Positions 15,128 to 35,974 of a stretch of DNA of 35,974 nucleotides are shown piece by piece; the first letter of the stretch is position 1, and every line of letters begins with the position of its first letter. The position numbers and the translations under genes were made by a program. The notes beneath the pieces were generated by a model. The model did not search any database, was not told the DNA's origin, and saw only the letters and a list, made by a program, of their open reading frames with translations. Origin of the DNA: a virus; the IMG/VR virus record IMGVR_UViG_3300029258_005854, positions 1 through 35,974 of that record; one strand, given 5' to 3'.

Positions 15128-15871
15128 ATGACCGCACTCAGCACAGACAGAAACACGTGGTACCAGGAGTCGGTGGACACGCTCCGGGCCCCGATGGCGG
15201 CTGACGCGGAGATCTTCGTCGGTGGCATGGTCTGTCGGGACGCGGCCGGCTACGCCGTCCCTGCAGATGACGCGGAGGGCTACATCTTCGCCGGCATGGC
15301 CATTGAGGATCCGCAGAATCCCGGCGGGAACTACGACAACTCGGGCGGCGACGACGGCGACGTCTACGTCGTCGTGCGCACGAAGGGCCGGGCCCGCTAC
15401 GCCCTGAACAGGACGCCCTCGCAGGACATGCTCCTGGCGAAGGCCTACTGCGTGGACGACCAGACGGTCGAGGTCAACGCCGCCGCGCTGACCTACGACG
15501 TCCAGTGCGGCTTCGTGACGAAGCTGCCCACGGCGACCCTGGCCTACGACGCCGAGGCGGACTTCTCGACGGACGAGGTCGAGATTGAGTTCTCCGGCGG
15601 CGTGGATGACTACGCGCCCACGACGACAACGGCAGCGCCGACAACGGCGGCGCCGACCACTGAGGCGGCGACAACTCCTGCGCCGACAACGCCTGCCAGG
15701 ACGACAACGCCAGCGGCGACAACTCCTGCGCCGACAACGCCTGCCAGGACGACCACGGCACCGCCGACGACCACGCCGGCGGCGACCACCGAGGCGGCCA
15801 CCACTGAGGCGGCGACCACCGAGGCGGCGACCACCGAGGCGGCCACAACGACCACAACGCAGGGAGGCTGA
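15128..15871 (+). CDS. Head decoration (cement) protein 1 with long Thr/Ala/Pro mucin-like tail
   Basis: A 247-residue protein. Residues 1-160 form a compact cement-like domain (EIFVGGMVCRDAAGYAVPAD, then GDVYVVVRTKGRARYAL) like the DUF2190-type decoration proteins that follow capsid protease genes. The remaining 84 or so residues are almost only Thr, Ala and Pro (TTTTAAPTTAAPTTEAATTP...). The tail is encoded by tandem repeats: a 48-base unit twice (about 15665-15760) and a 15-base unit four times (15785-15844, encoding TTEAA). AAGGAGG precedes the ATG. A near-copy follows at 15931. The tail is likely exposed on the capsid surface and could carry O-glycans. Confidence 0.8.
   Translation: MTALSTDRNTWYQESVDTLRAPMAADAEIFVGGMVCRDAAGYAVPADDAEGYIFAGMAIEDPQNPGGNYDNSGGDDGDVYVVVRTKGRARYALNRTPSQDMLLAKAYCVDDQTVEVNAAALTYDVQCGFVTKLPTATLAYDAEADFSTDEVEIEFSGGVDDYAPTTTTAAPTTAAPTTEAATTPAPTTPARTTTPAATTPAPTTPARTTTAPPTTTPAATTEAATTEAATTEAATTEAATTTTTQGG
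15665..15844 (+). repeat. Tandem DNA repeats encoding the Thr-rich tail
   Basis: A 48-base unit occurs twice from about 15665, encoding AATTPAPTTPARTTTP-like blocks. A 15-base unit (ACCACCGAGGCGGCG type) occurs four times at 15785-15844. The repeats keep the reading frame, so copy-number change would alter tail length without loss of the protein. Confidence 0.85.
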
Positions 15872-18001: not shown

Positions 18002-18594
18002 TCGCACTGGACGTGGACATGCGCGAGGTGGAGCGGGGCCTGAAAGGCCTCGCTGAGGCCATCGCGGACATGACGCCGGTGGCCCGCGACTTCGGGGCGC
18101 ACATGGTCCGCAAGTGGGTCATGCGCTTCCCGCGCACGGGCGGGCATGAGGCGTCCGCCGCGGGCGAGCCGCCCGCCGTCCAGTCCGCCGCGCTGCGCAA
18201 CTCGCTGACCTACGAGGTCGGCGACGGCGGCGACTCGGCCGAGATGGGCACGCCGCTCGTGTACGGCCTGATCCAGCACTTCGGCGGCGTAATACATATG
18301 CGGCCGGGGGGCCCTCACCTGACGGTGCCCATCGCCGACGAGAGCTACGGCAAGGGAGCGTTTGACTTCGGCGACCTGGACTTCCGCCCCAGCAAGGGCG
18401 GCGGCCCGAGCGGACACAGCATCGGCGTCCTGGGCGAGATGGCGGGCGGCGACTTCAAGCCGCTGTTCGCCCTGCTCACGGAGGTGGAGATCGAGGAGCA
18501 CCCCTGGCTGGTCGTCGAGCAGGAGGACTACGACTACCTGGGTGATCGGATGGTCGAGCACCTCAACAAGGAGACGGACCGGAGGATGCGCTGA
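17998..18594 (+). CDS. Virion morphogenesis protein, Mu gpG-like
   Basis: A 198-residue protein of the phage virion morphogenesis (gpG/tail completion) type: MIALDVDMREVERGLKGLAE, FGAHMVRKWVMRFPRTG, LRNSLTYEVGDGGDSAEMG, and the typical YGLIQHFGGVIHMRPGG. It probably joins head and tail. GTG start overlapping the gp36 stop. Confidence 0.83.
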   Translation: MIALDVDMREVERGLKGLAEAIADMTPVARDFGAHMVRKWVMRFPRTGGHEASAAGEPPAVQSAALRNSLTYEVGDGGDSAEMGTPLVYGLIQHFGGVIHMRPGGPHLTVPIADESYGKGAFDFGDLDFRPSKGGGPSGHSIGVLGEMAGGDFKPLFALLTEVEIEEHPWLVVEQEDYDYLGDRMVEHLNKETDRRMR

Positions 18595-23836: not shown

Positions 23837-23838
23837 AC

Positions 23839-23866
23839 CACGAAGGACACGAAGATCACGAAGGCA
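23839..23866 (+). repeat. CACGAAG-type repeat, left arm only
   Basis: ACCACGAAG followed by two more CACGAAG-type 9-base units begins immediately after the stop of the tail gene. It uses the same GCATGAACCACGA junction seen at 34412. It is followed by an AACGAAAGGAGGTGC ribosome-binding site for the next gene. It looks like a half copy of the palindromic elements further right. Confidence 0.7.
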
Positions 23867-23899: not shown

Positions 23900-24088
23900 A
23901 TGAGCAAGGACGGATGGTGGTGGCCGGCCAACGCGAGGAAGGCGCACTACATGATCGCCGGGCGCTCGTTGTGTGGCGAGTGGGGCTGCCTCGGCAATGC
24001 CCACCCCGAGCAGGGGAACGATGACAGCCCGGACAACTGCGCCGAGTGCAAACGACGGCTCAAACAGTGGAAGGGAGGTGCGGGATGA
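23900..24088 (+). CDS. Small zinc-binding phage protein (W-P...HY...SLCG...CxxC)
   Basis: A 62-residue protein MSKDGWWWPANARKAHYMIA, then GRSLCGEWGCLG and a final CAECKRRL. This compact pattern (WP, KAHY, SLCG, then CxxC) recurs in small phage proteins and probably binds one zinc. Function unknown. ATG 23900 follows AAAGGAGG; an adjacent GTG (23897) is equally possible. Overlaps the next gene by ATGA. Confidence 0.65.
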   Translation: MSKDGWWWPANARKAHYMIAGRSLCGEWGCLGNAHPEQGNDDSPDNCAECKRRLKQWKGGAG

Positions 24089-24471
24089 AGCGGAGGGTCT
24101 GGGACGGGACGAGGACGCTGGTGTGTGAGAGCTGCAGCGCCGAACGCGAGGCCCGGCGGGGAGACCATGAGCCGCGCTGCGTGCTCTGCGGAGCGCGCAT
24201 GCGCGCCCCGAAGGCAGAAGTCAGAAGGCAGAAGGCAGAAGGAACGGCAACGGCAAACGGCAACAACGGCGCCCACCACGAAGGGCACGAAGGGCACGAA
24301 GGCGACGGCAACGGCGGGGCCGAGGTAACGGCGACGCCAAAGACGGCAACGGCAAACGGCAACGACGGGGGAGGGACAACGGCAACACCGCCGGCCCCGC
24401 CCCACAGACAGTTGACGACCGATGCCCCGACAGAGATCCGCCCGCTGGACTGGGTTGGGGAGCGGCGCTGA
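24085..24471 (+). CDS. Zinc-ribbon protein whose second half is made of dispersed repeats
   Basis: A 128-residue protein. Residues 1-42 form a short zinc ribbon (CESCSAEREAR...CVLCGARM). Residues about 43-110 are the in-frame translation of three repeat types: AAGGCAG heptamers (KAEVRRQKAEG), AACGGC units (TATANGNN) and CACGAAG units (HHEGHEGHEG). The last 18 residues (TTDAPTEIRPLDWVGERR) look like the original C-terminus. Repeat insertion into a coding region without frame loss is the simplest explanation. The stop abuts the next start. Confidence 0.65.
   Translation: MKRRVWDGTRTLVCESCSAEREARRGDHEPRCVLCGARMRAPKAEVRRQKAEGTATANGNNGAHHEGHEGHEGDGNGGAEVTATPKTATANGNDGGGTTATPPAPPHRQLTTDAPTEIRPLDWVGERR
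24211..24242 (+). repeat. AAGGCAG heptanucleotide repeat inside the zinc-ribbon gene
   Basis: About four copies of the 7-base unit AAGGCAG, one degenerate, followed by AACGGCAACGGC-type units and a CACGAAG triplet (24270-24300). All are in frame with the coding sequence. Confidence 0.85.
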
Positions 24472-27051
24472 GTGGCTGTCGAGCTCTACATCGACGACGT
24501 GCTGACCAGCACCTGCCAGGTGCGCAGCATCACGGCCTCGTACGTGCAGCCCTTCGAGGCGGTGATCTTCTGCCCCTGCCGGCACGACGCGCCCACCACG
24601 CTCCACCTCTGGGACACCGTCCGCGTGGACGTCGGCGGCGTCACGCGCTTCCGGGGCAACCTGACCGAGGTCGCACCCGGCGGCGTCAGCGACGAGGGCG
24701 TCACGTGGATCGCCCGCGGCAAGCGCTTCCGGCTGGAGAACGAGCCGGTCCGCGTCAACGGGCGCGGCTTCTACGTCTGGAACCGGCGGGGCCATACCTG
24801 CGAGGAGGGCCAGGGAGGCGAGGACAGCCCCGGCAACGACGGCGGCAAGTGGGAGGCCGGCGAGATCGTCATCGACATCCTCGAGCACGCCCTCGGCATC
24901 CCCGGCGGCGGGTCGGACATCGCCGGCCACCACGGCGACGCCTGCTGCGTGACGGACACCTACCTGACCGCCGCCGACGTGGCCGGCTACACGGCGGCTG
25001 ACTGGCTCGCGCTGGACAGCGTCATCGGCGAGTTCAGCGTGGACAACACGAGCGTCGCCGACGCGATCAGCCTGCTGGTCGCGCTCAACGGCGGCTTCTA
25101 CGGCTGGTACGTGGACCCGAGCACGGGCGACCTGGTCCTGGTGGACCTGGACGACCTGGAGTGCGTGGACATCGAGGCCGGCCGGCTGGGCCACTGGCAG
25201 GACGAGGGCGGCACGGACTACCGCCTGCTCGACAACCGGCTGGAGTGGAGCCTGGAGGGCGTCGCCTCGACCATCGTCATCCAGGGCACGGACGAGACGA
25301 CCGAGGAGCAGCCGGCCAACATCGAGGGCACGGCCAACCCCGGCCTGGGAGACCTGGGCGAGATGGAGCTGGTGGCGGCGCCGTGGAAGGGCTTCGCCTC
25401 CGCCTATAGGCCGCTCTGCCAGACGAAGCGCTACACGACCGCGAAGCAGATCGACCCGCTCAACGCGCTCACCCCGCCGGTGGGCTTCCTGAACTTCGGC
25501 CACGGGCCGCGCGTCTACGAGGGCACGGGCCTGGGCGCTAAGCTCGCCTACAACCCCGCCAGCGGCGTCTTCCCGCGCTGGATGCACCAGACCGGCATCC
25601 TCGGCTTCTACGAGGCGCCGGCGCTCGGGCCGGGCGTGAAGCTCTGGGGCTGGTACTGGGCCGAGGTGCCGTTCCTCGTCACGGCGGGGCCGGCGGGCGA
25701 CGCCTGGCACTGCTACGGCTACCAGCGCACGCGGACGGTGTACGACTCGGCGTTCAAGCACCCGACCAGCTACCCGCAGGAAGGCGAGGCCGACGACGAG
25801 ACGGCGATGGGCATCCTGGCGACGCGGCTCCTGCGGCTCTACAAGAACGTCCGCCGGCAGGGGCAGCTCGACTGCGACGAGGTGGACTTCGCGGCCTTCC
25901 ACCTGGAGCAGCGCTACAGCGTGTCGAACCTGGGCGCGGCCGCGCTCGGCTACTCGACCAGCACGGAGGCGCCGGCGATCACCAGCACCACGGGCTGCCC
26001 GTGGCTGCCGACGCGCTGGGACGCGCTCTGCATCAACGCGGTGGAGGTGACCTACGACTTCGACGACGACGCGACGCGGATCCGCGTGGCGAACACGTTC
26101 TTCATGCTCGAGGAGTACTCGGAGCTCAAGCGGCGGCTGGAGCTGAACCTGTTCGCGCAGCGCGAGTTGGACCTGAGCGAGGACGTGGCCGCCTGCACCG
26201 TCCGGGACACCTACTCGCAGGAGGAGGACGCGGAGGCCGTGCCGACCACGGCGCCGCCGAGCACGCCTGCGCCGCCGAGCACAACCCCGGGCCCGACGAC
26301 GCCGGGGCCCACGACGCCCCTGCCGACCACATCCGGGCCGACGACCCCCGCGCCCACCACGCCCGGGCCGACGACGCCGAAGGCGACGACTACGACCGAG
26401 AAGGCGACCACCACGACCGAGAAGGCGACCACGACGACGGAGAAGCCGACGACCGCCGCGCCGACGACTCCGAAGCCGACCACGCCCCCGGGCCCTGAGC
26501 CGACGACCGAAGGCCCAGGCCCCGGTCCGACCACGCCCGGCGCCGGCACGTCCACGACGCCGGCGGGGTCGACCTCGACCCAGGCGTGGAGCACGACGAG
26601 CACGACTTCGACCTGCTGGACGGACGGCTGCACGGAGGCCAACTGCGAGGGGTGCCCGGAGCTGCTCTACGCGGACGTTTACATCGAGCCCGACGACGAG
26701 ATGGAGTGCATCCTGAACGGCACCGTGGAACTGACGCAGCAGGGGAACCCGTGCTACTGGGAGTGCACCGACACCCCGGACGCCTGCGACACGGGCGAGG
26801 GCTACTGCTGGATCGAGGACGGCATCAACAGCTTCCTCGTGTGCGACGACAGCTATCAGTACTGCAGCGCGCTCGATTGGTATCTGCAGCTCACGATTGG
26901 CGGGGAGGGCGGGCTCTGCGAGTGCGTCTGCGCCTGGTGTCGGCCGGTCTGCACGTGCCCGACGGGGACCTACGCGTGGGCGGGCGGCGCCTCGACCTGC
27001 CATTGGTGCGGGTCCGACGAGACCACGAACTCAATCGACGTCTACTCCTGA
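24472..27051 (+). CDS. Tail-tip/adhesin protein: hub-like domain, mucin-like linker, cysteine-rich end
   Basis: An 859-residue protein. Residues 1-585 are beta-rich and resemble a tail hub or baseplate protein (VELYIDDVLTSTCQVRSITA, WDTVRVDVGGVTRFRGNLTE), placed where siphophages keep tail-tip genes. Residues about 589-713 are a mucin-like linker of Thr/Pro blocks (PGPTTPGPTTPLPTTSGPTT). It includes KATTTTE three times, encoded by 21-base units at 26380-26442. Residues about 714-859 contain 19 cysteines (GCTEANCEGC, GLCECVCAWCRPVCTC), suggesting a disulphide-stabilised terminal domain. A receptor-binding role is inferred. GTG start directly after the previous stop. Confidence 0.7.
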   Translation: MAVELYIDDVLTSTCQVRSITASYVQPFEAVIFCPCRHDAPTTLHLWDTVRVDVGGVTRFRGNLTEVAPGGVSDEGVTWIARGKRFRLENEPVRVNGRGFYVWNRRGHTCEEGQGGEDSPGNDGGKWEAGEIVIDILEHALGIPGGGSDIAGHHGDACCVTDTYLTAADVAGYTAADWLALDSVIGEFSVDNTSVADAISLLVALNGGFYGWYVDPSTGDLVLVDLDDLECVDIEAGRLGHWQDEGGTDYRLLDNRLEWSLEGVASTIVIQGTDETTEEQPANIEGTANPGLGDLGEMELVAAPWKGFASAYRPLCQTKRYTTAKQIDPLNALTPPVGFLNFGHGPRVYEGTGLGAKLAYNPASGVFPRWMHQTGILGFYEAPALGPGVKLWGWYWAEVPFLVTAGPAGDAWHCYGYQRTRTVYDSAFKHPTSYPQEGEADDETAMGILATRLLRLYKNVRRQGQLDCDEVDFAAFHLEQRYSVSNLGAAALGYSTSTEAPAITSTTGCPWLPTRWDALCINAVEVTYDFDDDATRIRVANTFFMLEEYSELKRRLELNLFAQRELDLSEDVAACTVRDTYSQEEDAEAVPTTAPPSTPAPPSTTPGPTTPGPTTPLPTTSGPTTPAPTTPGPTTPKATTTTEKATTTTEKATTTTEKPTTAAPTTPKPTTPPGPEPTTEGPGPGPTTPGAGTSTTPAGSTSTQAWSTTSTTSTCWTDGCTEANCEGCPELLYADVYIEPDDEMECILNGTVELTQQGNPCYWECTDTPDACDTGEGYCWIEDGINSFLVCDDSYQYCSALDWYLQLTIGGEGGLCECVCAWCRPVCTCPTGTYAWAGGASTCHWCGSDETTNSIDVYS
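26380..26442 (+). repeat. 21-base tandem repeat encoding KATTTTE
   Basis: Three consecutive 21-base units in frame within the mucin-like linker of the tail-tip gene. Third-position differences between units show that the repeat is not brand new. Confidence 0.85.
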
Positions 27052-27067: not shown

Positions 27068-27475
27068 ATGGACGGCGTAAAGATGGCGCGGATCAGGCGC
27101 TGCAAGGCGTGCGAGCACTGCTTCTGGCGGCCGCCCCAGTACCGGGGCACGCACGGTTACGCGCGGTTCTGCGCGGTGCGCGGGCACGAACGCGGCGGCC
27201 GCATCGAACTGCACGACGCCTACATGGAGGGGCCGGAGGCCAACTGCCCCGCCGGCTACTGGACCGGCCTGGAGCCGGTGGACATGGAGGCCGAGGCCGA
27301 GGCGTCCAGGCAGATGCGCATCCGCGTGCAGACCGCGCAGTACGGGCCGATCCTGGAGATCTCCCTCATGGCGACGCCCGCCGAGAAGCGGGCGGAGATC
27401 ATCGAGGACCTGGCCGACGTGCTGCACCTGGAGCCCGAGACCAGGGACGCGCTCCTGGAGGCACTGGCCGGCTAA
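27068..27475 (+). CDS. Cysteine-rich small protein of unknown function
   Basis: A 135-residue protein. Residues 1-60 carry RCKACEHCFWRPPQYRGTHG, RFCAVRGHE and NCPAGYW, a probable metal-binding knuckle. The second half is helical and acidic (TPAEKRAEIIEDLADVLHLE). GGAGGAGG precedes the ATG. It is the last gene before the palindromic elements begin. Function cannot be assigned. Confidence 0.6.
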   Translation: MDGVKMARIRRCKACEHCFWRPPQYRGTHGYARFCAVRGHERGGRIELHDAYMEGPEANCPAGYWTGLEPVDMEAEAEASRQMRIRVQTAQYGPILEISLMATPAEKRAEIIEDLADVLHLEPETRDALLEALAG

Positions 27476-27487
27476 GCAGCAGCGGGA

Positions 27488-27632
27488 ACCACGAAGAACA
27501 CGAAGAGCGCGAAGGAAGGCAACGGATGAGGATCGGGGCACAACGGCAACGGCGAGAGGGATGGGTGTCGCCTCCGTTTGTCGCTTCTCATGGTCTGTCG
27601 TTTTTCTTCGTGCTCTTCGTGCTCTTCGTGGT
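27488..27632. repeat. Palindromic repeat element R1
   Basis: Left arm at 27488-27517 (three CACGAAG-type units after ACC) and right arm at 27603-27632 are inverted copies matching at 27 of 30 positions. The core between them has AACGGC units and GTTTGTCG/GTCTGTCG tracts. The right end runs into GAGAACGCCGTTTTGAGAGGAGGTGC, which supplies the ribosome-binding site of the next gene. It occupies the whole gap between two genes, and no ORF of its own is apparent. Confidence 0.85.
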
Positions 27633-27661
27633 GAGAACGCCGTTTTGAGAGGAGGTGCGAG

Positions 27662-30313
27662 GTGAGCAAGTCGGCTGAGACGATCCGGGAGAAGTGGCGC
27701 CGGCGGGCGGAGCGCATCGGCCCCGCCGGGGCCGGCAAGGTGCCGCCCTGCATCTACGGGGACCGGTTCAGCGAGGGCTGCTGCGACGGCTGGAAGGTAC
27801 GCTGCCACCATCCGAGCCAGCCGGAAGCCCTGGTCGTCAAGCCGAAGCACTGCGCGCACTGCGAGCGCCGCCTGCCACCGGGCCGCCTCCGCATCGGCGC
27901 GGTGATCACCGCGCGCAACGAGGGCGACGAGGTCCACGAGACGGTCAAGTCCCTGGCCGACTCCGTCATCGACGCGCAGCTTATGGTCGCCCTGGTGGAC
28001 GACGGCTCGACGGACGGGTCCTGCGACGCCGAGCGGTTCTCCGACGTCGACGCCGACCACGTCGTCATCACGCGCATCCGCCACGAGGAGAGCGAGGGCG
28101 TGGGCCGCTCCCGCAACGCCGGTTGGGCGACCGCCCGGGGGCTGGGCTGCGACGTCGTGACGTTCCACGACGCGCACATGCGCTTCAACCCCGGCGACCT
28201 GGAGGCGCTCGCCGTGAAGGCGCTCCGCACGGGCGCCCTCGTCACGGGCGCCAGCCACGACGTGCCGTCCAAGGGGCGGCTGCGCGGCTGCTGGATGCAC
28301 TACTCGGCCGGCTACGGCATCCAGCCGAAGTGGGCCACGGCGGGCCAGGTCCGCGACTACGTCCCCGAGGGCCTGCGCGAGGGCAAGCCGAAGCCGGACC
28401 GGCCCGACTCGGCGCCCCTGCCGGAGTGGTGGCGGACGCCGTGCATGATGGGCGCCTGCTACGTGGTGCCCGTCGAGACCGGCAAGAAGCTGGAGGCGGC
28501 GACGGGCCAGCTCTGGGACGATACGGCGGGCGTCTGGGGATTCTCCGAGCAGGCGCTCTCCATCAAGGCGTGGCTGCTCGACGTGCCGATCCTCCAGAGC
28601 CGCGACTACGCGGCCGGGCACAATTACCGGGGCCACAACCCGCACCCCGACGCGAACGCCGGCCAGTGGCGCAACATCGCCCGCTGCACGGCGCTCTACT
28701 TCGGGCGGGAGGTTTTCGACCGGCGCTTCCGCACCTGGTGCGAGGGCAACCTGCCGGCGGGCGAGCTGGAGGAGATCGTCGCCGGGGCACTCGCCGACGC
28801 GCCCGAGCCGGGCTGCTGGCTGCACCATCCGCACGACGCCTTCACGCACCTGCTCGGCATCGGCGCGCCGATCACGGGCCTGCACCCGGAGCACAAGTGG
28901 CTGCTGGTCGTCCAGGAGGTCTGCCGCGAGCTGGCGGCGGAGCACCCCGAGGGCGAGGGCGTGCGCGTGCTGCAGTGGCGGCCAGGCGAGGCGACGCTGC
29001 TCTGCCGCTACCTGCTGCCGAAGGCGGAGATCATCGCGCTCGAAGTCGCCGGCTACCGGGTGAAGGTCTGGACGGCCGCGTGCAAGGCGCACGGCGTGGC
29101 GCTGCACCAGCTCGAGGTCGCCGACGAGGACTACTGCACCCGCCCGGTGCACGCGTCGTGGCGGGGGGAGGGGTTCGACCTGGTCCTCATCGGCGGGGAG
29201 CGGCAGGGGGAATGCCTGGCCGTCGCGGGGCGGCTCCTGCGGCCGGGGGACGGTCGGATCGTGCGCAACCCGATGGCCGACCGGCTCCAGATCGAGGACG
29301 ACGAGCTCAAGAAGGAGCGGAAGGCGCTCCGCGATCTGGGCTTCCTGCCCAACAACGGCGGGGACCACGAAGAACACGAAGAGCACGAAGAGGGGAACGA
29401 CGCGAACGATGGGCAGGCAGAGCCTTCGGAGGTCCGGTCGGGTCAAAGCCCAGGGGCGGCACTGGGCGGCACCTCCGCCCGGCCGGCCTCCGCTCCATCG
29501 AAGGCAGAAGGCAGAAGGCAGAAGGCAGAAGGGAACGGCAACGGCGGCAAGCCCGACCCGCTCGTCACGGTGTGCGTCCTGAACTGGGCCCGCGACGGGA
29601 ACATCGGCGAGCTGCTCACGTCCATCAGGGCGCAGACCGTCCCGGCGAAGGTCGTGCTCTGGAACAACGGCGACCCCATCGTCTTCCGCGACAGGGGCGG
29701 CACGGAGAAGGAAGGCGCGGTCGCGCACCAGGCGCTCCGGCCCATCGCCGAGCACCCGCTGGTCAGCCTGGCCGTGCAGTCCAGCCGCAACGTCGGCTGC
29801 TTCCCGCGCTGGTGGCTGGCGAGCCTGGCGGACACGGAGTACGTCTGCTCGATGGACGACGACCTCGCCTTCGCCGACGAGCGCGTGCTGGCGGACGCCG
29901 TCGCCTACGCCCAGAGGCACTGCCGGCGGGGCATCATCGGGCTGTTCGGCTGGCGGCGCGTCGAGGACAAGGATTACCGCCACGGCGAGCACATCCAGAA
30001 GCCGCCGGGCCACGAGTGGGTGGACGTCATCAAGGGGCGGTTCATGTTCTTCCGGCGCGAGCTGCTCGACCGCGTGCCGCTGGCCCTGCCCGGCCTGCCC
30101 GTGATGGGCGGCATCCGGCAGCGCGAGGACGACATCATCCTGAGCCTCTGCATCGGCGCGGGCCGGGAGCACCCGCACCTCGTGATGGGGCCGGGCAAGC
30201 GCTGGCGCGACCTGCCGACGCGCGGCGTGTCGAGCGAAGGCACGCCCGGCCACTGGCAGCACCGGCAGGACACGCTGGAGTACGTCACCCACTGGCTGGA
30301 GGAACGCCGATGA
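27662..30313 (+). CDS. Triple-domain glycosyltransferase (GT-A / methyltransferase-like / GT-A)
   Basis: An 883-residue protein. Residues 28-70 hold a Cys/His cluster. Residues 78-330 form a GT-A domain: ITARNEGDEVHETVKSL, VDDGSTDGS, then the metal-binding FHDAHMRF (DxH) and a WGFSEQALSIKAWL loop. DxH and WG-x-x-E patterns recall polypeptide GalNAc-transferases (GT27), hence a possible protein O-glycosylation role (inference). Residues about 395-560 look like a degenerate Rossmann methyltransferase (FDLVLIGGERQGECL). Residues about 568-630 are in-frame repeat translation (HEEHEEHEE, then KAEGRRQKAEG). Residues about 640-883 form a second GT2 domain with VCSMDDDLAF. The start is GTG after AGAGGAGG. 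Confidence 0.8.
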   Translation: MSKSAETIREKWRRRAERIGPAGAGKVPPCIYGDRFSEGCCDGWKVRCHHPSQPEALVVKPKHCAHCERRLPPGRLRIGAVITARNEGDEVHETVKSLADSVIDAQLMVALVDDGSTDGSCDAERFSDVDADHVVITRIRHEESEGVGRSRNAGWATARGLGCDVVTFHDAHMRFNPGDLEALAVKALRTGALVTGASHDVPSKGRLRGCWMHYSAGYGIQPKWATAGQVRDYVPEGLREGKPKPDRPDSAPLPEWWRTPCMMGACYVVPVETGKKLEAATGQLWDDTAGVWGFSEQALSIKAWLLDVPILQSRDYAAGHNYRGHNPHPDANAGQWRNIARCTALYFGREVFDRRFRTWCEGNLPAGELEEIVAGALADAPEPGCWLHHPHDAFTHLLGIGAPITGLHPEHKWLLVVQEVCRELAAEHPEGEGVRVLQWRPGEATLLCRYLLPKAEIIALEVAGYRVKVWTAACKAHGVALHQLEVADEDYCTRPVHASWRGEGFDLVLIGGERQGECLAVAGRLLRPGDGRIVRNPMADRLQIEDDELKKERKALRDLGFLPNNGGDHEEHEEHEEGNDANDGQAEPSEVRSGQSPGAALGGTSARPASAPSKAEGRRQKAEGNGNGGKPDPLVTVCVLNWARDGNIGELLTSIRAQTVPAKVVLWNNGDPIVFRDRGGTEKEGAVAHQALRPIAEHPLVSLAVQSSRNVGCFPRWWLASLADTEYVCSMDDDLAFADERVLADAVAYAQRHCRRGIIGLFGWRRVEDKDYRHGEHIQKPPGHEWVDVIKGRFMFFRRELLDRVPLALPGLPVMGGIRQREDDIILSLCIGAGREHPHLVMGPGKRWRDLPTRGVSSEGTPGHWQHRQDTLEYVTHWLEERR
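29361..29392 (+). repeat. CACGAAG-type repeat inside the glycosyltransferase gene
   Basis: Three 9-base units (ACCACGAAGAACACGAAGAG...) are read in frame as HEEHEEHEE. They lie between the methyltransferase-like and second glycosyltransferase domains. Confidence 0.85.
29501..29533 (+). repeat. AAGGCAG heptanucleotide repeat inside the glycosyltransferase gene
   Basis: Four copies of the 7-base unit, read as KAEGRRQKAEGRRQKAE, then AACGGCAACGGC. Together with the unit at 29361 it forms an insertion of about 60 residues in the interdomain linker. Confidence 0.88.
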
Positions 30314-31242
30314 AGCTCACCACAACGACACGACGATCACAACGACGGCAACGGAACGGCAGGGGGAAGAAACAACGGACAACGGAGGCGCTTGGCCGTC
30401 ATCCTCGATTCCTGCCGTTCGTCGTGCTCGTTGTGTCGTCGTGGTTGATCCTGCCCGGCTGCGGGCTGTTTGGGGACGGAGTCAAACAGGATCCGATCCC
30501 CCTCGACCCGCGTCCGCCCGTGGACCTGCGCGAGGACATCAGCCGCCAGGCCGCTTACGCTGCCGACGTGCTGGACGCCGTCGAGGTCCTCGGTGCCGAG
30601 CCGGCCAGCGAGGCCGTCGCCCAGGCCGCCGACTCGGCCGACCTAGTCGAGAGCTACCTCGGGCCGCCGATCGAGCGGATCCCCGTCGCCGTGGAGACGC
30701 CGGGCACCGGGCCGGACGCGCGCAGACTGGGGCCGTGCCCGGTGCACGAACGCTACCTGGAGCGCGCCCGGGAAGCGCTCGAACTCTGGCGTGAGGCGCA
30801 GGCCGAGCACGAGGAGGACCTGGACGACCTGCGCGAGGAGCAGATGGAGCGCGGCGGAGGCGGTCGGCCCTGGTTCATCAGCCTGCTGCTCGGGCTCGGA
30901 TGGTGGCTGCTGCCCCTGGCGGTGCTGGGGCTGCTCGTGCTGCTGCCGGAGCAGGTGGTCGGGAAGATCGTCGGCGGGGTCATCGACGCCGTGCGGGCGG
31001 TGGTCGGGGAGATTGTCCTGCGCGCGACGCACACGCTGGCGCACGTCGTCGAGGGCGTCCAGCGCGCGAAGGGCGAGATGGAGCCGGAGCAGCTGGACGT
31101 GCTCCGGCAGAAGCTGACTGACAGCACGACCCTGGCGGACAAGGAACGCATCGCGCTCATCAAGGAGCGCGTGAAGGCGGATCTCAGCGCAGAGAATGCT
31201 GAGACCGCAGAGAGCAAACCCCAGGAGAAGGAGGGAGTCTGA
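30310..31242 (+). CDS. Lipoprotein with second membrane segment; signal peptide built from a repeat element
   Basis: A 310-residue protein. The N-terminus is long and basic (MKLTTTTRRSQRRQRNGRGK), followed by a hydrophobic core and lipobox FVVLVVSSWLILPGC (Cys at about residue 51), so export and lipidation are predicted. Residues about 180-215 contain another membrane segment (FISLLLGLGWWLLPLAVLGL), then an amphipathic helical C-terminus (AVVGEIVLRATHTLAHVVEG). Possible roles are lysis (spanin-like) or superinfection exclusion; neither is shown. The true original start might lie nearer the lipobox, with the basic part added by the repeat. It overlaps the glycosyltransferase stop by ATGA. Confidence 0.65.
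   Translation: MKLTTTTRRSQRRQRNGRGKKQRTTEALGRHPRFLPFVVLVVSSWLILPGCGLFGDGVKQDPIPLDPRPPVDLREDISRQAAYAADVLDAVEVLGAEPASEAVAQAADSADLVESYLGPPIERIPVAVETPGTGPDARRLGPCPVHERYLERAREALELWREAQAEHEEDLDDLREEQMERGGGGRPWFISLLLGLGWWLLPLAVLGLLVLLPEQVVGKIVGGVIDAVRAVVGEIVLRATHTLAHVVEGVQRAKGEMEPEQLDVLRQKLTDSTTLADKERIALIKERVKADLSAENAETAESKPQEKEGV
30319..30445. repeat. Palindromic repeat element R2, overlapping the lipoprotein signal sequence
   Basis: Left arm ACCACAACGACACGACGATC and onward (from 30319) and right arm (to 30445) are inverted copies, both carrying a GAACGGCAGG inner end. It lies inside the coding sequence that follows: the left arm is read as TTTTRRSQRRQRN and the right arm as LPFVVLVVSSW. Confidence 0.8.
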
Positions 31243-31325
31243 TGGCAGGAGTGATCGGATGGATCGTGGTCGGCGTATGCGTGGCGGTGGCGGCGAGGTC
31301 GCTCTACCGCTGGTGGCACAACTGA
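31242..31325 (+). CDS. 27-residue single-span membrane peptide
   Basis: MAGVIGWIVVGVCVAVAARS and a final LYRWWHN: one membrane helix and a basic-aromatic end. The ATG overlaps the preceding stop region (TGATG), and GGAGGG stands a few bases upstream. The small size calls for caution, but coupling to the lipoprotein gene and the ribosome-binding site support it. It could be part of a holin-like or regulatory membrane pair with the lipoprotein. Confidence 0.5.
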   Translation: MAGVIGWIVVGVCVAVAARSLYRWWHN

Positions 31326-31338
31326 CGAACGGACTCTC

Positions 31339-31485
31339 ACCACGAAGGACACGAAGGGCACGAAGGGAAGAACGACAACGGCAGCAACGGCAAGGTGGGG
31401 AGAGGCGGCGGCGCAGGATAGGCCCTGTCGTTCGCCGTCATCCTCAGGCTGTGCCGTTCTTCGTGGTCTTCGTGTCCTTCGTGGT
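31339..31485. repeat. Palindromic repeat element R3
   Basis: Left arm ACCACGAAGGACACGAAGGG and onward (from 31339), inverted right arm ending CCTTCGTGGT (31485). Inner arms contain GAACGACAACGGC and TGCCGTTC. The core has GCCGTCATCCTC, which is also found in R2, showing that the cores are related and not only the arms. It fills the gap between two genes and abuts a GAGGAGGTGC ribosome-binding site. Confidence 0.85.
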
Positions 31486-31514
31486 CCAGGTGTTGTTGAG
31501 GAGGAGGTGCAGTC

Positions 31515-32345
31515 GTGAGGAAGCAAGCGGAGCTGATCAAAGCGGGCGAGTGGGACGTGCTCCTGATCCTGGACGCCTGCCGGGCGGACTACTTCGCTGA
31601 GGTCTGCGAGCCGGCGGAGGTCGTCCGCAGCCCGGCGGGCAACACCACGCACTGGATACAGGCGCTCGGCGGCTGGTTTGAGAGCCAGCCGGTGGCCTAT
31701 GTGACCGGGAACCCGGTCGTGAACCGCGAGTTCAACAAGCGCGGCAACAACTTCCACCCCGTGTCCGTCTGGGGGGGCTGCTGGGGCGTCCACACCCGGG
31801 CCGAGGTCCCGTCCGTCCATCCCCAGGCGGTCAACGGCTACGTGGCCGGGATGGGCTACCCTCCCATGCCCTGGCAGCATCTGGTCGTCCACTACATCCA
31901 GCCGCACGCGCCGTACATCGGCGAGCCGCCGCTGGGCCTCTCCCGGCCCTGGAAGAATATGCCCTGGGCGAAGCTCCAGGGCGAGATCCGCGACCGCTGT
32001 TTCCGCCCGGATGAGATCGTCGGCGGGATCGGCATGAGCTGGGAGGAGGTCCGCGCGGCCTACCGGGGCAACCTGCGCCTGGTCTGGCAGGCCGCCCGGC
32101 AGCTCGCCCGCGAGTTTATCCGCGCCGGGCGGCGTGTCGTCGTCACAAGCGACCACGGGGAGTTCCTCGGCGAGCAGGGACGCTTCGGGCACGAGTGGGA
32201 ATGGGGCAACGAGCCGATCCTCCGCGAGGTGCCGTGGCTGGAACTCGCCGCTGACGCGGCGGAAGGCAGAAGGCAGAAGGCAGAAGGCAGAAGTGACGGC
32301 AAGACGACCACCGAACAGAAGCTGGAGGCCCTGGGCTATGCCTGA
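31515..32345 (+). CDS. Alkaline phosphatase/sulfatase-superfamily protein 1
   Basis: A 276-residue protein with the superfamily's metal-site pattern: DVLLILDACRADYF (first Asp), SPAGNTTHWI (probable Thr/Ser nucleophile), VVTSDHGEFLGEQ (Asp-His pair) and FGHEWEWGNEPILREVPWLE (final His). The C-terminal EQKLEALGYA matches the family's usual end. The stretch before it (about 248-262) is an in-frame AAGGCAG repeat. It probably hydrolyses or transfers a phosphate or sulphate ester on a surface glycan; the substrate is unknown. GTG start with GAGGAGGT upstream. Its stop overlaps the paralogue's start. Confidence 0.75.
   Translation: MRKQAELIKAGEWDVLLILDACRADYFAEVCEPAEVVRSPAGNTTHWIQALGGWFESQPVAYVTGNPVVNREFNKRGNNFHPVSVWGGCWGVHTRAEVPSVHPQAVNGYVAGMGYPPMPWQHLVVHYIQPHAPYIGEPPLGLSRPWKNMPWAKLQGEIRDRCFRPDEIVGGIGMSWEEVRAAYRGNLRLVWQAARQLAREFIRAGRRVVVTSDHGEFLGEQGRFGHEWEWGNEPILREVPWLELAADAAEGRRQKAEGRSDGKTTTEQKLEALGYA
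32263..32293 (+). repeat. AAGGCAG repeat near the 3' end of phosphatase gene 1
   Basis: Four heptanucleotide copies in frame, inserted between the metal-site region and the final helix of the protein. Confidence 0.88.
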
Positions 32346-33099
32346 GCTGCCCGCGCAAATCGACCTGCTGCGCTCGACGGACTGGCGGACGCTGATCATC
32401 CTGGACGCCTGCCGCTGGGACGTCTTCGAGGCCGTCCTGGCGCACTGCATTCCGCGCGGCCTCCAGCCCCGGCCCGTCCGCTCGCCCGCCACCTGCACCG
32501 CCGAGTGGCTCATCGCCGTCAAGCCCGCCCTGGAGGCGGAGGACACGACCTACTACACCGCGAACGCCTTCGTCGAGCGCGAGCGCGCCGGGCGCGGCCT
32601 GCGCGTGGACCTGCGCAACGTCTGGCTCCGCCACATGACGCCGTGCGGGCTGGACGGGCGGCAGACCGTCCAGCCGTGGGTGATGAACGCCGTCGTCCTG
32701 CGCCAGGAGATGCCGGCCGGGGTCTGTCCCAGGCCGCGCGCGCGGCGCGTGGTGCACTACGCGCAGCCGCACTACCCGCCGGTGGCGATGAAGCTGTCGG
32801 CGGTCTCCGGCTGCCGGTGCGATTACGAGGCCAGCGCGGAGGTGGTCATGCGCGCCGCGCTGCATCTGGCGGGGCTGCTGCCGGGGCCGACGGTGATCAC
32901 CGCCGACCACGGCGACATGCAGGGCGAGGACGACCTCTACGGACACGACTGCCGCTGGGACAGGCCGGAGCTCTGGACTGTCCCGTGGCTGGAGCTCGCC
33001 GCTGACGCGGCGGAAGGCAGAAGGCGGAAGGCAGAAGGCAGAAGTGACGACGACGACACAACAGTCGAACAGAACCTGGAGGCGCTCGGCTATGCCTGA
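32338..33099 (+). CDS. Alkaline phosphatase/sulfatase-superfamily protein 2 (tandem paralogue)
   Basis: A 253-residue paralogue: LIILDACRWDVFEAV, SPATCTAEWL, VITADHGDMQGED and YGHDCRWDRPELWTVPWLE. It keeps all metal-site positions seen in protein 1. The body is much diverged from protein 1, but the last 45 or so residues, including the AAGGCAG-derived AEGRRRKAEGR and EQNLEALGYA, are nearly identical to it, suggesting recombination at the repeat. ATG start inside the previous stop (ATGCCTGA); the same octamer couples it to the next gene. Confidence 0.73.
   Translation: MPELPAQIDLLRSTDWRTLIILDACRWDVFEAVLAHCIPRGLQPRPVRSPATCTAEWLIAVKPALEAEDTTYYTANAFVERERAGRGLRVDLRNVWLRHMTPCGLDGRQTVQPWVMNAVVLRQEMPAGVCPRPRARRVVHYAQPHYPPVAMKLSAVSGCRCDYEASAEVVMRAALHLAGLLPGPTVITADHGDMQGEDDLYGHDCRWDRPELWTVPWLELAADAAEGRRRKAEGRSDDDDTTVEQNLEALGYA
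33013..33044 (+). repeat. AAGGCAG repeat near the 3' end of phosphatase gene 2
   Basis: Four heptanucleotide copies, one with a G for A change, at the same position as in the paralogue and in the same frame. Confidence 0.88.
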
Positions 33100-34417
33100 C
33101 GCTGATCTCACCGTCGTCTGTGCGGCGTCGCCGGGCCGCTGGATCCCCCGCGCCCGGCGGCTCATGGCCTCCGTCTGGCGCTACGCGCCGGAGGTGGACG
33201 CGCGGATCCACGTCGTGGACCCCTGGTCCAAGGCCCGCCGCTTCCGCGCCTTGAGCTCCGTCGAAGGGGCAGTCCATCTGCTGCACCTCGACTGTGACTG
33301 CCTCTGCGCCGGCTCCGTGCTCGACGTGCCCAGGGGCCGGCTGGTCTCCCGCCGCGCCCCCATCCACGGCCACCCGAAGTGGGACGAGGACTGCTACCGC
33401 GACATGCTGGCGGACTTCGGCCTGCCCTACCGCACGCTCCCCCTGCCCGGCCTGTTCCTCTGCGACGCCGCCGTGGCCCGCTGGATCGCCGCAAGGGAGG
33501 GCCTCTGGCGGGAGCGCTACCTGGCGTCCCACTTCCGCCCCATGAAGCGCCACCCGAACCCGGACACCGTCACGCTCGCCCTCACCCTGGCCGAGCGCGG
33601 CATTACGGACGCCGAGACGACCTGGGTCGGCCCGGAGACGTTTTCCTTCCAGGGCGCCGACCCCCGGCCCGGCGTCGTGCACCACTTCGGCACGGCCACC
33701 TACGCGAAGCTCGAGGAGAAGGGACTCCTCTGGACCGAACTGGAGGCGAGGCGACTCATGACCGCAGGCGAGATTGAGGACGTCGAGGAGATCTACGACG
33801 AGGAGTACCACCGCGTGGCCGGCAAGCGCGGCGAGAAGCAGTGGCCCGCCAAGCAGGACATGGCCCGCGCCATCCACGAGCTGCTCGGGCCGCGCAGCGT
33901 CATCGACGTGGGCTGCGGGCGCGGCTGGTGGCTGGAGTACTGGGCCCGCGAGCATCCGGCCGTCCACGTCGTCGGGATGGACGGCTGCGCGCGGCTCATC
34001 AAGCAGACCGGCCAGTGCGACGACCTGGTCCGGCCGCTCATCAACTCGTGCGACCTGCGCGTGCCGGACTGGTGGCGGCCCTGGACGGAGCACGCGGCCT
34101 GGCCGTTCGACCTGGTCATGTGCGTCGAGGTGGCCGAGCACCTGCACGAGGGGCACGCCGGCGCGCTCATCTACGGCCTGACGCGGCTGGCCGGGCCGGA
34201 CGGGACGGTGTTCTTCAGCGCCGCGCGGCCGCGCCAGAAGGGCCGGCACCACGTCAACCTGCGCCGCAAGGACTGGTGGGCGGACCAGTTCCGGCTGCAC
34301 GGCTGGGACAGCGTCCCGCCGCTGCGGCGGACGTGGCAGGCGTCGCTCAACAAGCAGGGGCAGTTCGGCTGGAACATCCGCAAGAACGCCATGTTCTTCC
34401 GCCGGGGAGAGGCATGA
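33092..34417 (+). CDS. Glycosyltransferase-methyltransferase fusion
   Basis: A 441-residue protein. Residues 1-215 form a GT-A-like domain (LTVVCAASPGRWIPRARRLM, the metal-binding LLHLDCDCLCAGS near 62-74, LPGLFLCDAAVARW). Residues about 255-430 form a class I SAM methyltransferase with motif I VIDVGCGRGWW, then VVGMDGC and FDLVMCVEVAEHLHEG. ATG 33092 overlaps the phosphatase 2 stop. The fusion could add and then methylate a sugar on the same acceptor. The stop is followed at once by element R4. Confidence 0.8.
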   Translation: MPDADLTVVCAASPGRWIPRARRLMASVWRYAPEVDARIHVVDPWSKARRFRALSSVEGAVHLLHLDCDCLCAGSVLDVPRGRLVSRRAPIHGHPKWDEDCYRDMLADFGLPYRTLPLPGLFLCDAAVARWIAAREGLWRERYLASHFRPMKRHPNPDTVTLALTLAERGITDAETTWVGPETFSFQGADPRPGVVHHFGTATYAKLEEKGLLWTELEARRLMTAGEIEDVEEIYDEEYHRVAGKRGEKQWPAKQDMARAIHELLGPRSVIDVGCGRGWWLEYWAREHPAVHVVGMDGCARLIKQTGQCDDLVRPLINSCDLRVPDWWRPWTEHAAWPFDLVMCVEVAEHLHEGHAGALIYGLTRLAGPDGTVFFSAARPRQKGRHHVNLRRKDWWADQFRLHGWDSVPPLRRTWQASLNKQGQFGWNIRKNAMFFRRGEA

Positions 34418-34554
34418 ACCACGACGACCACCACGAGCACAACGGACGGCCAGGATCGGGGGGGACGACGGGAGCAAGTTCTGTGCGCCGTTGTCGTTCC
34501 CCTCGTTCAGTCGCAGCCGTTGCTGTCCGTCGTGATCGTCGTGATCGTTGTGGT
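34418..34554. repeat. Palindromic repeat element R4
   Basis: The left arm ACCACGACGACCACCACGAG starts directly after the upstream stop codon. The inverted right arm CCGTCGTGATCGTCGTGATC to GTTGTGGT ends at 34554. Beyond it GAGACCGCCGTTTCTGGAGAGGAGG gives the next gene its ribosome-binding site. This right side recurs almost unchanged in R5. Confidence 0.85.
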
Positions 34555-34586
34555 GAGACCGCCGTTTCTGGAGAGGAGGTGCACTG

Positions 34587-35120
34587 ATGGCTGGACCGAA
34601 GACGTACGGACACGCGCGGGTCCTCTGCGACCTGCTCCGCGACCGGCGCTATGCGAGGGGCGCGGAGATCGGCGTCAACCACGGCATGACCGCGCTCTAC
34701 CTGCTGGAGCATCTGCCCGGCATCGAGCGCTACTACGCCGTGGACCCCTGGGAGGCGGACTCCACCTACCTGGAGACGCTCAGTCCCGAGAAACGCCGCA
34801 CGCAGGCCGAGTTTGATGCGGCCTACGCCGGCTTCCTGGCGCGCATCCTGCCCTATGCGGGGAAGGTGGCCGTTCTGCGGCTCGACAGCTTGTGGGCCGC
34901 CGACGCCATCCCACGCTGGACGCTCGACTGGGCCTTCATCGACGGCGTGCATACCTCGACGCACTGCCGCTGCGATATCGACGACTGGGTACCAAAGGTA
35001 GTCCACGGTGGCCTGCTGGCCGGGCACGATTACAACATGCCGGGCGTCAGGAAGGCCGTGGATGAGCGCTTCCGGCGCGTCCACGTGGCCCCGGAGAACG
35101 TCTGGTGGGTGGAGGTCTGA
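34587..35120 (+). CDS. Class I SAM-dependent methyltransferase
   Basis: A 177-residue protein of the Methyltransf_24/cephalosporin-hydroxylase-like type seen in surface-glycan clusters: GAEIGVNHGMTALYLLEHLP (motif I, about 28-47), RYYAVDPWEAD, WAFIDGVHTSTHCRCDIDDW and GGLLAGHDYNMPGVRKAVDE. It probably methylates a sugar or small molecule together with the neighbouring transferases. ATG follows GAGAGGAGGTGC delivered by R4. Confidence 0.82.
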   Translation: MAGPKTYGHARVLCDLLRDRRYARGAEIGVNHGMTALYLLEHLPGIERYYAVDPWEADSTYLETLSPEKRRTQAEFDAAYAGFLARILPYAGKVAVLRLDSLWAADAIPRWTLDWAFIDGVHTSTHCRCDIDDWVPKVVHGGLLAGHDYNMPGVRKAVDERFRRVHVAPENVWWVEV

Positions 35121-35125
35121 TGCCC

Positions 35126-35261
35126 AAGGCAGAAGGCAGAAGGCAGAAGGCAGAAGGAACGACAGCCGCGCCGTCGTGCCGTTGTTGCCCCCGTCGCGCC
35201 GTTGCCGTCCGTCGTGATCGTTGTGATCGTCGTGGTGAGACCGCCGTTTCTGGAGAGGAGG
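35126..35261. repeat. Repeat element R5: AAGGCAG tract plus palindromic right arm
   Basis: Four AAGGCAG units (35126-35158) replace the usual left arm. The right side 35199-35261 matches 34517-34579 at 60 of 63 positions, including the GAGACCGCCGTTTCTGGAGAGGAGG leader. All three differences are C/T changes at the variable position of the repeat units. Confidence 0.87.
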
Positions 35262-35268
35262 CGCCCGT

Positions 35269-35974
35269 ATGAGCGACCTGACCCTGATCTACGCCGTGAC
35301 GCCGACGCAGCCCTACGTCCGCTACGCGGCGGCCAGCATCTACAGCGCCCTGCGCTCCAACCCAACAGTGCGCATCGCGCTCTGCGAGAGCGCGGCGATG
35401 GTGCCGGACAACCCGGCCACCGGCAAACCCTACCCGGAAGCCCTCCACGTGAACGCGCTGTGCGAGCTCACCACGGCGGAGCGTAGCGAAGCCGGGTCGT
35501 CTGCCGTTGCCGTTCCTTCTGCCTTCTCCCTTCTGCCTTCTTCCTTCGCCGTCCTCATGGACGCCGATACCTGGGTCCACGGCGACCTGCGTGAGCTGCT
35601 GCCGGGGGAGGGCGACGACGTCAGCCTTCGCACCGCGCACCCCTGGACGACCGGGCAGATCGACCGCAACGGCTGGCACGACATCTGCGACTATTGTGAT
35701 GGCCCGGCTCGGGCCGGCCATCCGCAACTGGATGCGGGCCCTGCCGACCTGCAACCTGCCCTACCCGGTCCACCTGCAGCGGCGGGAGGACTGGTGGATG
35801 CTGGACCAGCTCGCCCTGAGCGCCGCCGTCGCCGGCTTCGGCTGGCACGTCCGCGAGCTCGGCGCGGAGCACTTCTCCCGGAACTTCTCCGGCGAGAAGG
35901 GCGGCATTATCCACCACCTCGGCAAGAACACCGACCCGTTCAACCCCAAGTTCTGGGAGAGGAGCTTCCGATGA
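35269..35974 (+). CDS. Glycosyltransferase with an internal frame break and repeat insertion
   Basis: The N-terminal part (from ATG 35269) is a GT-A domain: MSDLTLIYAVTPTQPYVRYA, then the DxD strand FAVLMDADTWVHGDL near residue 93. Just before it an inverted AAGGCAG tract (35515-35547) is read in frame as VPSAFSLLPSSFA. After GWHDICDY the sensible sequence moves to the +1 frame (MARLGPAIRNWM, RREDWWMLDQLALSAA, HHLGKNTDPFNPKFWERSF) to a TGA at 35972. Removing one base within TATTGTGATGG (35692-35702) would rejoin the frames as DYWMARLGP. This is a real mutation, a sequencing error, or programmed slippage. The final ATGA suggests that another gene follows. Confidence 0.65.
   Translation, partial: MSDLTLIYAVTPTQPYVRYAAASIYSALRSNPTVRIALCESAAMVPDNPATGKPYPEALHVNALCELTTAERSEAGSSAVAVPSAFSLLPSSFAVLMDADTWVHGDLRELLPGEGDDVSLRTAHPWTTGQIDRNGWHDICDYCDGPARAGHPQLDAGPADLQPALPGPPAAAGGLVDAGPARPERRRRRLRLARPRARRGALLPELLRREGRHYPPPRQEHRPVQPQVLGEELPM
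35515..35547 (-). repeat. Inverted AAGGCAG repeat inside the last glycosyltransferase
   Basis: The heptanucleotide tract is in the opposite orientation to the other copies (CTTCTGCCTTCT-type) and is still open in the host gene's frame. Confidence 0.85.

Follow-up and report, generated by a model that had tools for sequence, protein, structure and literature searches.

The 35,974-bp sequence of the virus record IMGVR_UViG_3300029258_005854 (IMG/VR), hereafter the window, carries a series of short repeat elements, five of which (R1 to R5) had been described in an earlier note as the borders of gene cassettes. The repeats were confirmed to be real, and they appeared to be more insertion-like than cassette-border-like. 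Two kinds of repeat unit were distinguished. In the nonamer kind, a 7-nt unit (CACGAAG or CACRACG) with a short spacer of 1–3 nt is repeated about three times, and the resulting arms are inverted at the two ends of the element; the heptamer kind consists of tandem copies of GAAGGCA and its variants. The window elements share their ends with a large class of type-matched, arm-bounded units, some of which carry a gene of the GxxExxY nuclease family. We therefore favour, with a probability of roughly 0.6, the interpretation that they are gene-less relatives of GxxExxY and intervening sequence (IVS)-protein elements that invaded a temperate phage.

According to this model, the nonamer elements have the same ends as units bearing the gene of GxxExxY, a PD-(D/E)XK nuclease, and the heptamer elements (GAAGGCA and variants) would have the layout of units bearing the four-helix protein of 23S rRNA IVS. 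Both kinds would have inserted repeatedly into the phage, at intergenic positions, immediately behind stop codons, or in frame within genes. The GxxExxY nuclease would be supplied in trans, by the host or by another element, and could recognise either the repeated unit or a cruciform formed by the arms, cutting there or at the target; repair would then copy the arm-bounded DNA into the cut. We infer that the nuclease moves the elements from the layout, the matching of arm types, the co-variation of arms and protein, the intact catalytic residues, and the presence or absence of elements at orthologous sites.

GxxExxY Genes between Matched Inverted Arms

The earlier note had advised looking for a linked enzyme, and such a family was found in the GxxExxY nuclease. 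Three of nine convergent arm pairs spaced 250–600 bp apart enclose a GxxExxY gene (L174, L206, and L218); the family was named by TIGR04256 and PF13366 in L272, L255, and L280, the first of which apparently holds the same gene as L174. In a further survey, GxxExxY genes were sought irrespective of arms. Of the arm-bearing genomes, 33 of 40 gave a match, as did 43 of 99 genomes of Planctomycetota and 32 of 200 of Pseudomonadota; among named controls, the number was 3 of 14. The Pseudomonadota and Planctomycetota samples were evenly drawn and not picked for arms, and the loci are the best matches of different genomes; we take the phylum names of these samples to be those of their centre genomes, Schlesneria and Thiohalocapsa.

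An inverted repeat with a score of at least 14 was detected around 81 of 95 GxxExxY loci, versus only 3 of 285 control stretches of the same length from the same loci, and at a score of at least 20 the corresponding numbers were 59 of 95 and 0 of 285 (four of the 99 loci were dropped because of their short flanks). Inverted flanks were present at 24 of 29 loci in Pseudomonadota (controls, 1 of 87), 23 of 28 in Planctomycetota (2 of 84), and 58 of 67 in arm-bearing genomes (2 of 201). In a comparison with mismatched flank pairs, 83 of 97 loci were positive versus 6.1% of the mismatched pairs; flank repeats in the same orientation, with a score of at least 20, were found at 19 of 97 loci. Of 198 flanks, 111 had tandem units oriented as in the arms and 21 had them in the reverse orientation. 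For 70 of the 74 loci scored, the best period was 8, 9, or 10, so that the spacing fits a 7-nt unit followed by 1–3 nt.

Arm types at GxxExxY loci include CACGAAG, CACAGAG, CGCAGAG, CGCAAAG, CACGAAA, CGCAGAT, CACGGAT, and others. Among the 41 of 99 loci with a listed type on both sides, the two sides matched in 38. In viral contigs, a search with a single close GxxExxY query gave no confirmed match, and a profile search revealed two genes, L503 and L504, both of which, as judged by eye, have inverted arms, of different types; complete elements thus occur in viruses as well.

Co-Variation of Arms and Protein, and the Predicted Fold

On a phylogenetic tree of 99 GxxExxY proteins, the arm types require 37 changes versus 45.0 in shuffles, with none of 200 shuffles as low. 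Several types, CACAGAG among them, show no clustering when taken alone. At a deep split supported by the Shimodaira–Hasegawa-like approximate likelihood ratio test (SH-aLRT 94), units ending in G were assigned to all 46 labelled rows of one side and to 3 of 21 on the other, the remaining 32 of the 99 rows having no arm-type label. The p-value for this split is 1.4e-13, while the lowest value in 200 shuffles, each with its own best split, was 3e-4.

The active-site residues D, E, and K are invariant in all 99 proteins, as expected for the PD-(D/E)XK superfamily, so that, judging from its sequence, GxxExxY looks like an active nuclease. The best of five structural models had a predicted local distance difference test score of 91.3, while three others scored about 51 or less. 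This model could be superimposed on BamHI (3bam) with a Z-score of 8.6 over 110 residues at 3.1 Å, on SSO0001 (4ic1), which we take to be Cas4-like, with a Z-score of 8.7 over 100 residues at 4.9 Å, and on the Holliday junction resolvase Hjc (1gef) with a Z-score of 6.7 over 86 residues at 3.2 Å, a level that may reflect only a common arrangement. Foldseek gave no match with an E-value below 0.001, the best value being 5.1e-3. Endonuclease I of T7 and of T3 were two of only three profile hits, with non-significant E-values of 0.98 and 1.3.

Ends and Spread of the Elements

Alignment of 144 elements from other genomes revealed a common symmetrical terminus, in which an A-rich tract at about −14 to −8 is followed by TT(T/A)(C/A)ACC and then by the units, while the signal fades past −14. 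The shared leader that the earlier note had placed downstream of the elements is in part their outer end, since its sequence GGTGAGACCGCCGTTT fits this terminus. The ribosome-binding site that the leader was thought to supply, GGAGGTGC, occurs at nine places on the shown strand, including one ahead of the gene at 27068, where there is no element. Element interiors are mostly unrelated between genomes, and within some genomes they are related and occur in both orientations.

The two-unit arm pattern was found in at least 119 stretches of viral contigs and the palindrome pattern in at least 120 stretches of bacterial genomes, confirming that the repeats are dispersed and common to phage and bacteria. 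The 80 bacterial matches listed include several classes of Proteobacteria, Planctomycetes, Verrucomicrobia, Acidobacteria, Chloroflexi, Nitrospirae, KSB1, and others. Among 99 Planctomycetota genomes, 16 matched the true arm pattern versus 1 for the reversed pattern. With the single-arm pattern, neighbouring viral arms less than 300 bp apart were convergent in 19 cases, divergent in none, and on the same strand in 2 among the matches listed, at least 2 of the 19 convergent pairs being duplicate loci. A scan of viral contigs for CACRACG gave 61 stretches, and those listed are mostly threonine-rich coding repeats; the pair test for this unit left one convergent pair, in L464. This contig has a CACGACG-type palindrome at 12010–12124, similar to R2 and R4, and a second one near 11124.

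These data bear on whether an enzyme is needed at all. The elements could have been born from simple sequence by slippage and inverted template switching, with GxxExxY genes merely tolerating such flanks. The mostly unrelated interiors of different genomes, the uniformity of arm type within elements (R1 and R3 versus R2 and R4), and the fact that no target duplication stood out agree with such an origin. Nevertheless, we regard it as unlikely, since it does not predict the strong excess of convergent over divergent viral arms, the bounded ends with an A-rich tract, unit types that follow a deep split in the protein tree, or control stretches that almost never show arms.

Heptamer Arms at IVS-Protein Genes

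Genes of the IVS-protein family PF05635 show the same kind of layout as GxxExxY genes, with heptamer arms. They were detected in 32 of 37 genomes chosen from the arm and GxxExxY sets and in none of 14 controls; the first hidden Markov model, built from 3 seeds, recovered all 30 loci. Inverted flanks were present at 23 of 29 loci versus 0 of 87 control stretches, one of the 30 loci having been dropped from this test, and the period was 7 or 14 in 19 of 21 scored loci. No Rfam matches were obtained in the 20 of 30 loci checked, and therefore these 20 contain no rRNA.

The available text on the Coxiella IVS, which its authors termed selfish, describes inverted repeats at the termini, tandem copies of the heptamer GACAGAT upstream, and a loop with a single small open reading frame (ORF), S23p (PMC4990558). 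Insertions without an ORF have been reported at the same rRNA sites (PMC11270868), and PF05635 is described as resembling Avd of diversity-generating retroelements (PMC10053308).

Presence and Nesting of Elements in Bacterial Genomes

Relatives of Accumulibacter provided evidence that elements have been gained and lost. At one site, the element and its A-tract ends are both missing in 6 of 28 searched genomes, in which the flanks are joined to each other. Six relatives were aligned at a second site: one is empty, four contain palindromes or remnants of a different type (CGCAGAG/CACAGAG), and L425 is uninformative. The identity at these sites is about 70–90%, and the junctions are not base-exact.

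In a gammaproteobacterium (G007), the palindromes reside in a repeat similar to miniature inverted-repeat transposable elements (MITEs), with the ends GTAACTACTCAG and, as seen by eye, 8-bp duplications CAATAATC and AAATAAAT in two copies. The palindrome is present in 18 of 20 distinct copies, while L399 lacks it and L405 has only an arm-like stretch. Between L382 and L383, the palindrome interior differs in orientation with respect to the same flanking MITE-like repeat, as if flipped across the arms. A second MITE-like family with other ends, also holding palindromes, occurs in G018. In L151 (2869–3012), the element interior contains an inverted sequence (CATGCTGAGC..GAAGCATC / GATCCTTC..GCTCAGGATGAC), presumably a common dispersed repeat. 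Repeat families thus seem to nest in one another.

Such nesting raises the possibility that the palindromes have no machinery of their own and spread as cargo of the transposons or MITEs housing them, as the high occupancy in G007 and the second family in G018 could suggest. However, nothing common was found past about −14 across the 144 elements, other genomes contain elements that lack these outer ends, and the palindrome-free copy L399 suggests that the palindrome had inserted separately. A passenger origin is therefore considered very doubtful.

Elements of the Window

The window codes for a large serine integrase-like protein and for portal, head, and tail proteins; therefore, it is part of a probably temperate tailed phage. 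In its right third, tail genes are followed by genes with glycosyltransferase and methyltransferase domains. Exact two-unit arms of the form ACCAC[GA]A[AC]G..CAC[GA]A[AC]G were counted 9 times in the window and never in any of its 20 dinucleotide-shuffled versions.

Four elements have inverted arms of tandem 7-nt units with 1–3 nt spacers and ACC outermost, and, like MITEs, they have terminal inverted repeats and no coding capacity. R1 (27488–27632, 145 nt) is a complete CACGAAG-type palindrome that separates the 135-aa gene from the gene of an 883-aa glycosyltransferase. R3 (31339–31485, 147 nt), complete and of the same type, is located ahead of a sulfatase-like gene. R4 (34418–34554, 137 nt) is a complete palindrome of the ACGACG/ACAACG type that adjoins the stop codon of the 441-aa gene, and R2 (30319–30445, 127 nt) is a palindrome of this type that, with ATG 30310 as the start codon, falls within the coding sequence for the N-terminal part of the 310-aa protein. 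The arm type is uniform within each element, being ACGAAG in R1 and R3 and mainly ACGACG/ACAACG in R2 and R4. The earlier note had assigned inverted arms in 9-base steps to all of R1–R5, which proved correct for the first four. R5 (35123–35236) is a hybrid: a GAAGGCA array at 35132–35152 takes the place of the left nonamer arm, and an ACGACG-type nonamer arm at 35210–35236 forms the right side. The core piece GCCGTCATCCTC named in the same note is present in two copies, in R2 and R3, and GCATGAACCACGA was found directly at a stop codon at both 23831 and 34412.

Other copies, which lie within genes or beyond the range given in the earlier note, consist of single arms or arrays, on the plus strand unless stated. 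A lone left arm of the CACGAAG type, R0 (23837–23863), comes directly after the 284-aa tail gene, adjoining its stop codon, and no opposite arm of this type occurs before 27606. R0b (24210–24301) combines a GAAGGCA array (24210–24237) with a CACGAAG arm (24275–24301) within the ORF 24085–24468, while R1b (29364–29534), a CACGAAG arm with a heptamer array, lies in frame in an interdomain linker of the 883-aa glycosyltransferase. GAAGGCA arrays are also found in frame close to the C-terminus of the first sulfatase-like gene (32262–32289), at the same place in the second (33013–33040), and, inverted on the minus strand, within the last glycosyltransferase ORF (35520–35540). Heptamer arrays thus occupy six places, with one inverted pair among them (I2), in which 35503–35553 pairs with 35119–35169 over 51 nt with 84% complementarity at a distance of 333 nt.

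The claim that the elements occupy gene junctions is consequently correct for R1, R3, and R4, which lie between genes of the same strand, but not for the copies within ORFs (24210–24301, 29364–29534, 32262–32289, 33013–33040, and 35520–35540), to which R2 should be added if ATG 30310 is the start. Since 13 of the 18 arm stretches of the window are free of stop codons in all six frames, the arms are suited to in-frame insertion. If translation starts at ATG 30310, a lipoprotein-like protein has its N-terminus encoded by R2 (30310–30471), with the left arm giving the basic region and the right arm the hydrophobic core FLPFVVLVVSSWLILPGC; the right arm reads FVVLVVSSW and is followed by a lipobox-like LPGC.

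Compared with shuffled sequences, R1, R2, R3, and R4 had folding z-scores of −9.5, −5.3, −9.2, and −5.1, respectively, and in each case none of 200 shuffles folded as well. R5 formed no strong hairpin (z −1.3; 17 of 200 shuffles equally good). The elements could accordingly act as RNA hairpins within one transcript, in processing (for example, as RNase III sites), stability, or insulation, their mobility being incidental. Besides these folds and the location of R1, R3, and R4 between same-strand genes, a precedent is provided by an intervening sequence that has inverted repeats at its termini, with heptamers upstream, and is excised by RNase III, according to the available text of PMC4990558. 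A role in RNA is nonetheless distinctly unlikely to be the primary one, given that related phages with no CACGAAG hairpins at the corresponding junctions keep their gene order, that lone arms or hybrids (R0, R0b, R1b, and R5) exist and several copies lie in a coding frame, and that the palindromes occur in many phyla and are nested in transposon-like elements.

Several further features of the window were recorded. The two sulfatase-like paralogues are arranged in tandem (31515–33096); a Pfam scan gave no match for either of them, and the name reflects what we take to be a sulfatase-like motif. A 70-nt stretch around their heptamer inserts is 96% identical (family D6), which suggests duplication or conversion following heptamer insertion. 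Near 35700, the last glycosyltransferase ORF seems to change frame, and a single-frame protein looks out of frame near its end. Threonine-rich 15-nt repeats are present in virion genes at 15599–15864 and 26254–26498.

Comparison with Related Phages

Related viral contigs allowed us to compare the junctions. In L126, whose 859-aa tail protein is 58% identical to that of the window, such arms are missing, and the 135-aa gene and the glycosyltransferase gene overlap at stop and start codons exactly at the site of R1. The genes of L129 are arranged in the order tail284, tail859, GT883, SULF, GTMT441, MT177, and GT235, the 135-aa and 310-aa genes of the window being undetected there, and in L126, L129, and L131 the order tail284, tail859, GT883, SULF, and GTMT441 is kept over the genes found. 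L131 contains a single weak arm-like stretch with 4 mismatches. As in R2, an arm-like stretch that directly follows the GT883 homologue of L131 reads, by eye, as a hydrophobic segment.

Protein alignments revealed additions to window proteins. Both sulfatase-like proteins have, near AEGRRQKAEGRSD, a heptamer-derived stretch that is an addition relative to the homologues of L129 and L131, which are shorter there, and the GT883 linker DHEEHEEHEE...KAEGRRQKAEG is an addition relative to the homologue of L127; in L131, this linker is partly alignable. L130 (IMGVR_UViG_3300017989_004942) carries R0 and R0b arms unchanged. The 221 matched residues of this contig are identical to a window protein, and it looks like the same virus; if colinear, it extends the phage by about 11 kb leftward of the window.

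At the junction behind tail284, in the place of R0, L129 carries a CACAGAG arm; a heptamer array precedes its tail859 gene, and the interval of R3 holds matched CGCAGAT arms at 18289–18574 that start from a stop codon and surround one small ORF. These arms and their ORF form an arm-bounded gene unit in a related phage. Elements of different arm type thus occupy similar places in related phages. The window elements therefore look like insertions rather than cassette borders.

The proposal of the earlier note, that exchange at the elements shuffles glycan-modifying genes, found some agreement in gene content: the interval occupied by R3 in the window, from a small ORF to the sulfatase-like gene, contains about 2.2 kb of other ORFs in L126; the MT177 gene lies between R4 and R5; and a few viral arm pairs enclose one small phage gene, as in L129 and, among 9 pairs examined, in L011 (99 aa) and L067 (111 aa). 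However, the order of the genes found is constant in relatives in which the elements are missing or of another type. An integron-like cassette array was therefore rejected as the principal explanation and is considered most improbable.

Evidence Weighing against the Proposed Mobility

The interpretation of the window elements as gene-less relatives of nuclease-bearing units must be weighed against a number of observations. Searches of the window and of L126–L132 revealed neither GxxExxY nor IVS-protein genes, and the window copies can therefore only be gene-less relatives. No clear association between CACGAAG arms and the presence of GxxExxY was seen in the 99 Planctomycetota genomes, a hand count giving the gene in 8 of 16 arm-bearing and 35 of 83 other genomes; G091 has 25 arms and no GxxExxY match. 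Among CACGAAG pairs with no more than 600 bp between arms, only 2 of 166 contain the gene, and the others gave no profile match to a GxxExxY remnant. No target duplication clearly above that of shuffled pairs was detected in the 144 elements from other genomes; the window insertion sites are too diverged from those of relatives for such a comparison. The six empty Accumulibacter sites were picked because the match ran across the joint; in other genomes, it covered one half only. Both the list of unit types and the split of G-ending units were chosen after viewing the data, and some type labels may stem from a neighbouring element (L273). Finally, shared ancestry explains part of the co-variation of arms and protein, because arms and gene are physically linked.

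The origin of short elements by internal deletion of GxxExxY elements was also considered. The lack of nuclease remnants in short CACGAAG pairs does not support it, and it is therefore probably not the source of the short forms.

Relation to Known Systems and Implications

The closest published system is the Coxiella IVS with its S23p gene (PF05635), which likewise has terminal inverted repeats, tandem heptamers, and a small ORF (PMC4990558, available text); unlike the elements described here, 23S rRNA IVS are located in rRNA genes, and the nonamer kind bears a nuclease of another fold. Like MITEs, the elements are short and dispersed, have inverted ends, and at times lie in frame within genes (PMC10969869, available text). 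They differ in that their ends are tandem units of variable type rather than one fixed sequence, no target duplication stood out, and the partner sharing their ends is the GxxExxY nuclease family and not a known transposase. Rickettsia palindromic elements are also palindromes of about 150 bp found in frame in protein genes, as described in the available part of PMC10969869. Compared by description, they come from Rickettsia, while the present elements cross phyla, occur in phages, have arms of tandem units, and can be linked to a gene. Repetitive extragenic palindromic sequences (REPs) and bacterial interspersed mosaic elements are similarly extragenic palindromes in many copies, but REPs are described as 20–40 bp long (PMC3733652, available text), whereas the window elements are 127–147 nt with arms of about 27 nt. 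A literature search that fell short of most subscription journals found no published link between GxxExxY and nonamer arms, and a search for the unit strings gave nothing related; GxxExxY is mentioned in the available text of PMC8934634.

More broadly, and more tentatively, with odds that we would put somewhat short of even, GxxExxY and IVS proteins may be the engines of two parallel superfamilies of tiny elements, recognising arms built of tandem units, with a lineage-specific code of arm units, mobilisation in trans, and carriage between phyla by phages. If so, unnamed nonamer and heptamer repeats such as CACGAAG, CACAGAG, CGCAGAT, and GAAGGCA would be the ends of mobile elements, any DNA within matched arms, small phage genes included, would be mobilisable in trans, and in-frame insertions would add linkers, and even signal-peptide cores, to proteins. 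The link between arms and gene gives a testable function to the orphan nuclease GxxExxY and an origin to dispersed repeats, and the matching of types provides a ready set of candidate nuclease/target pairs. In the phage described here, gene-less palindromes would have colonised a viral genome and rewritten its proteins in frame.

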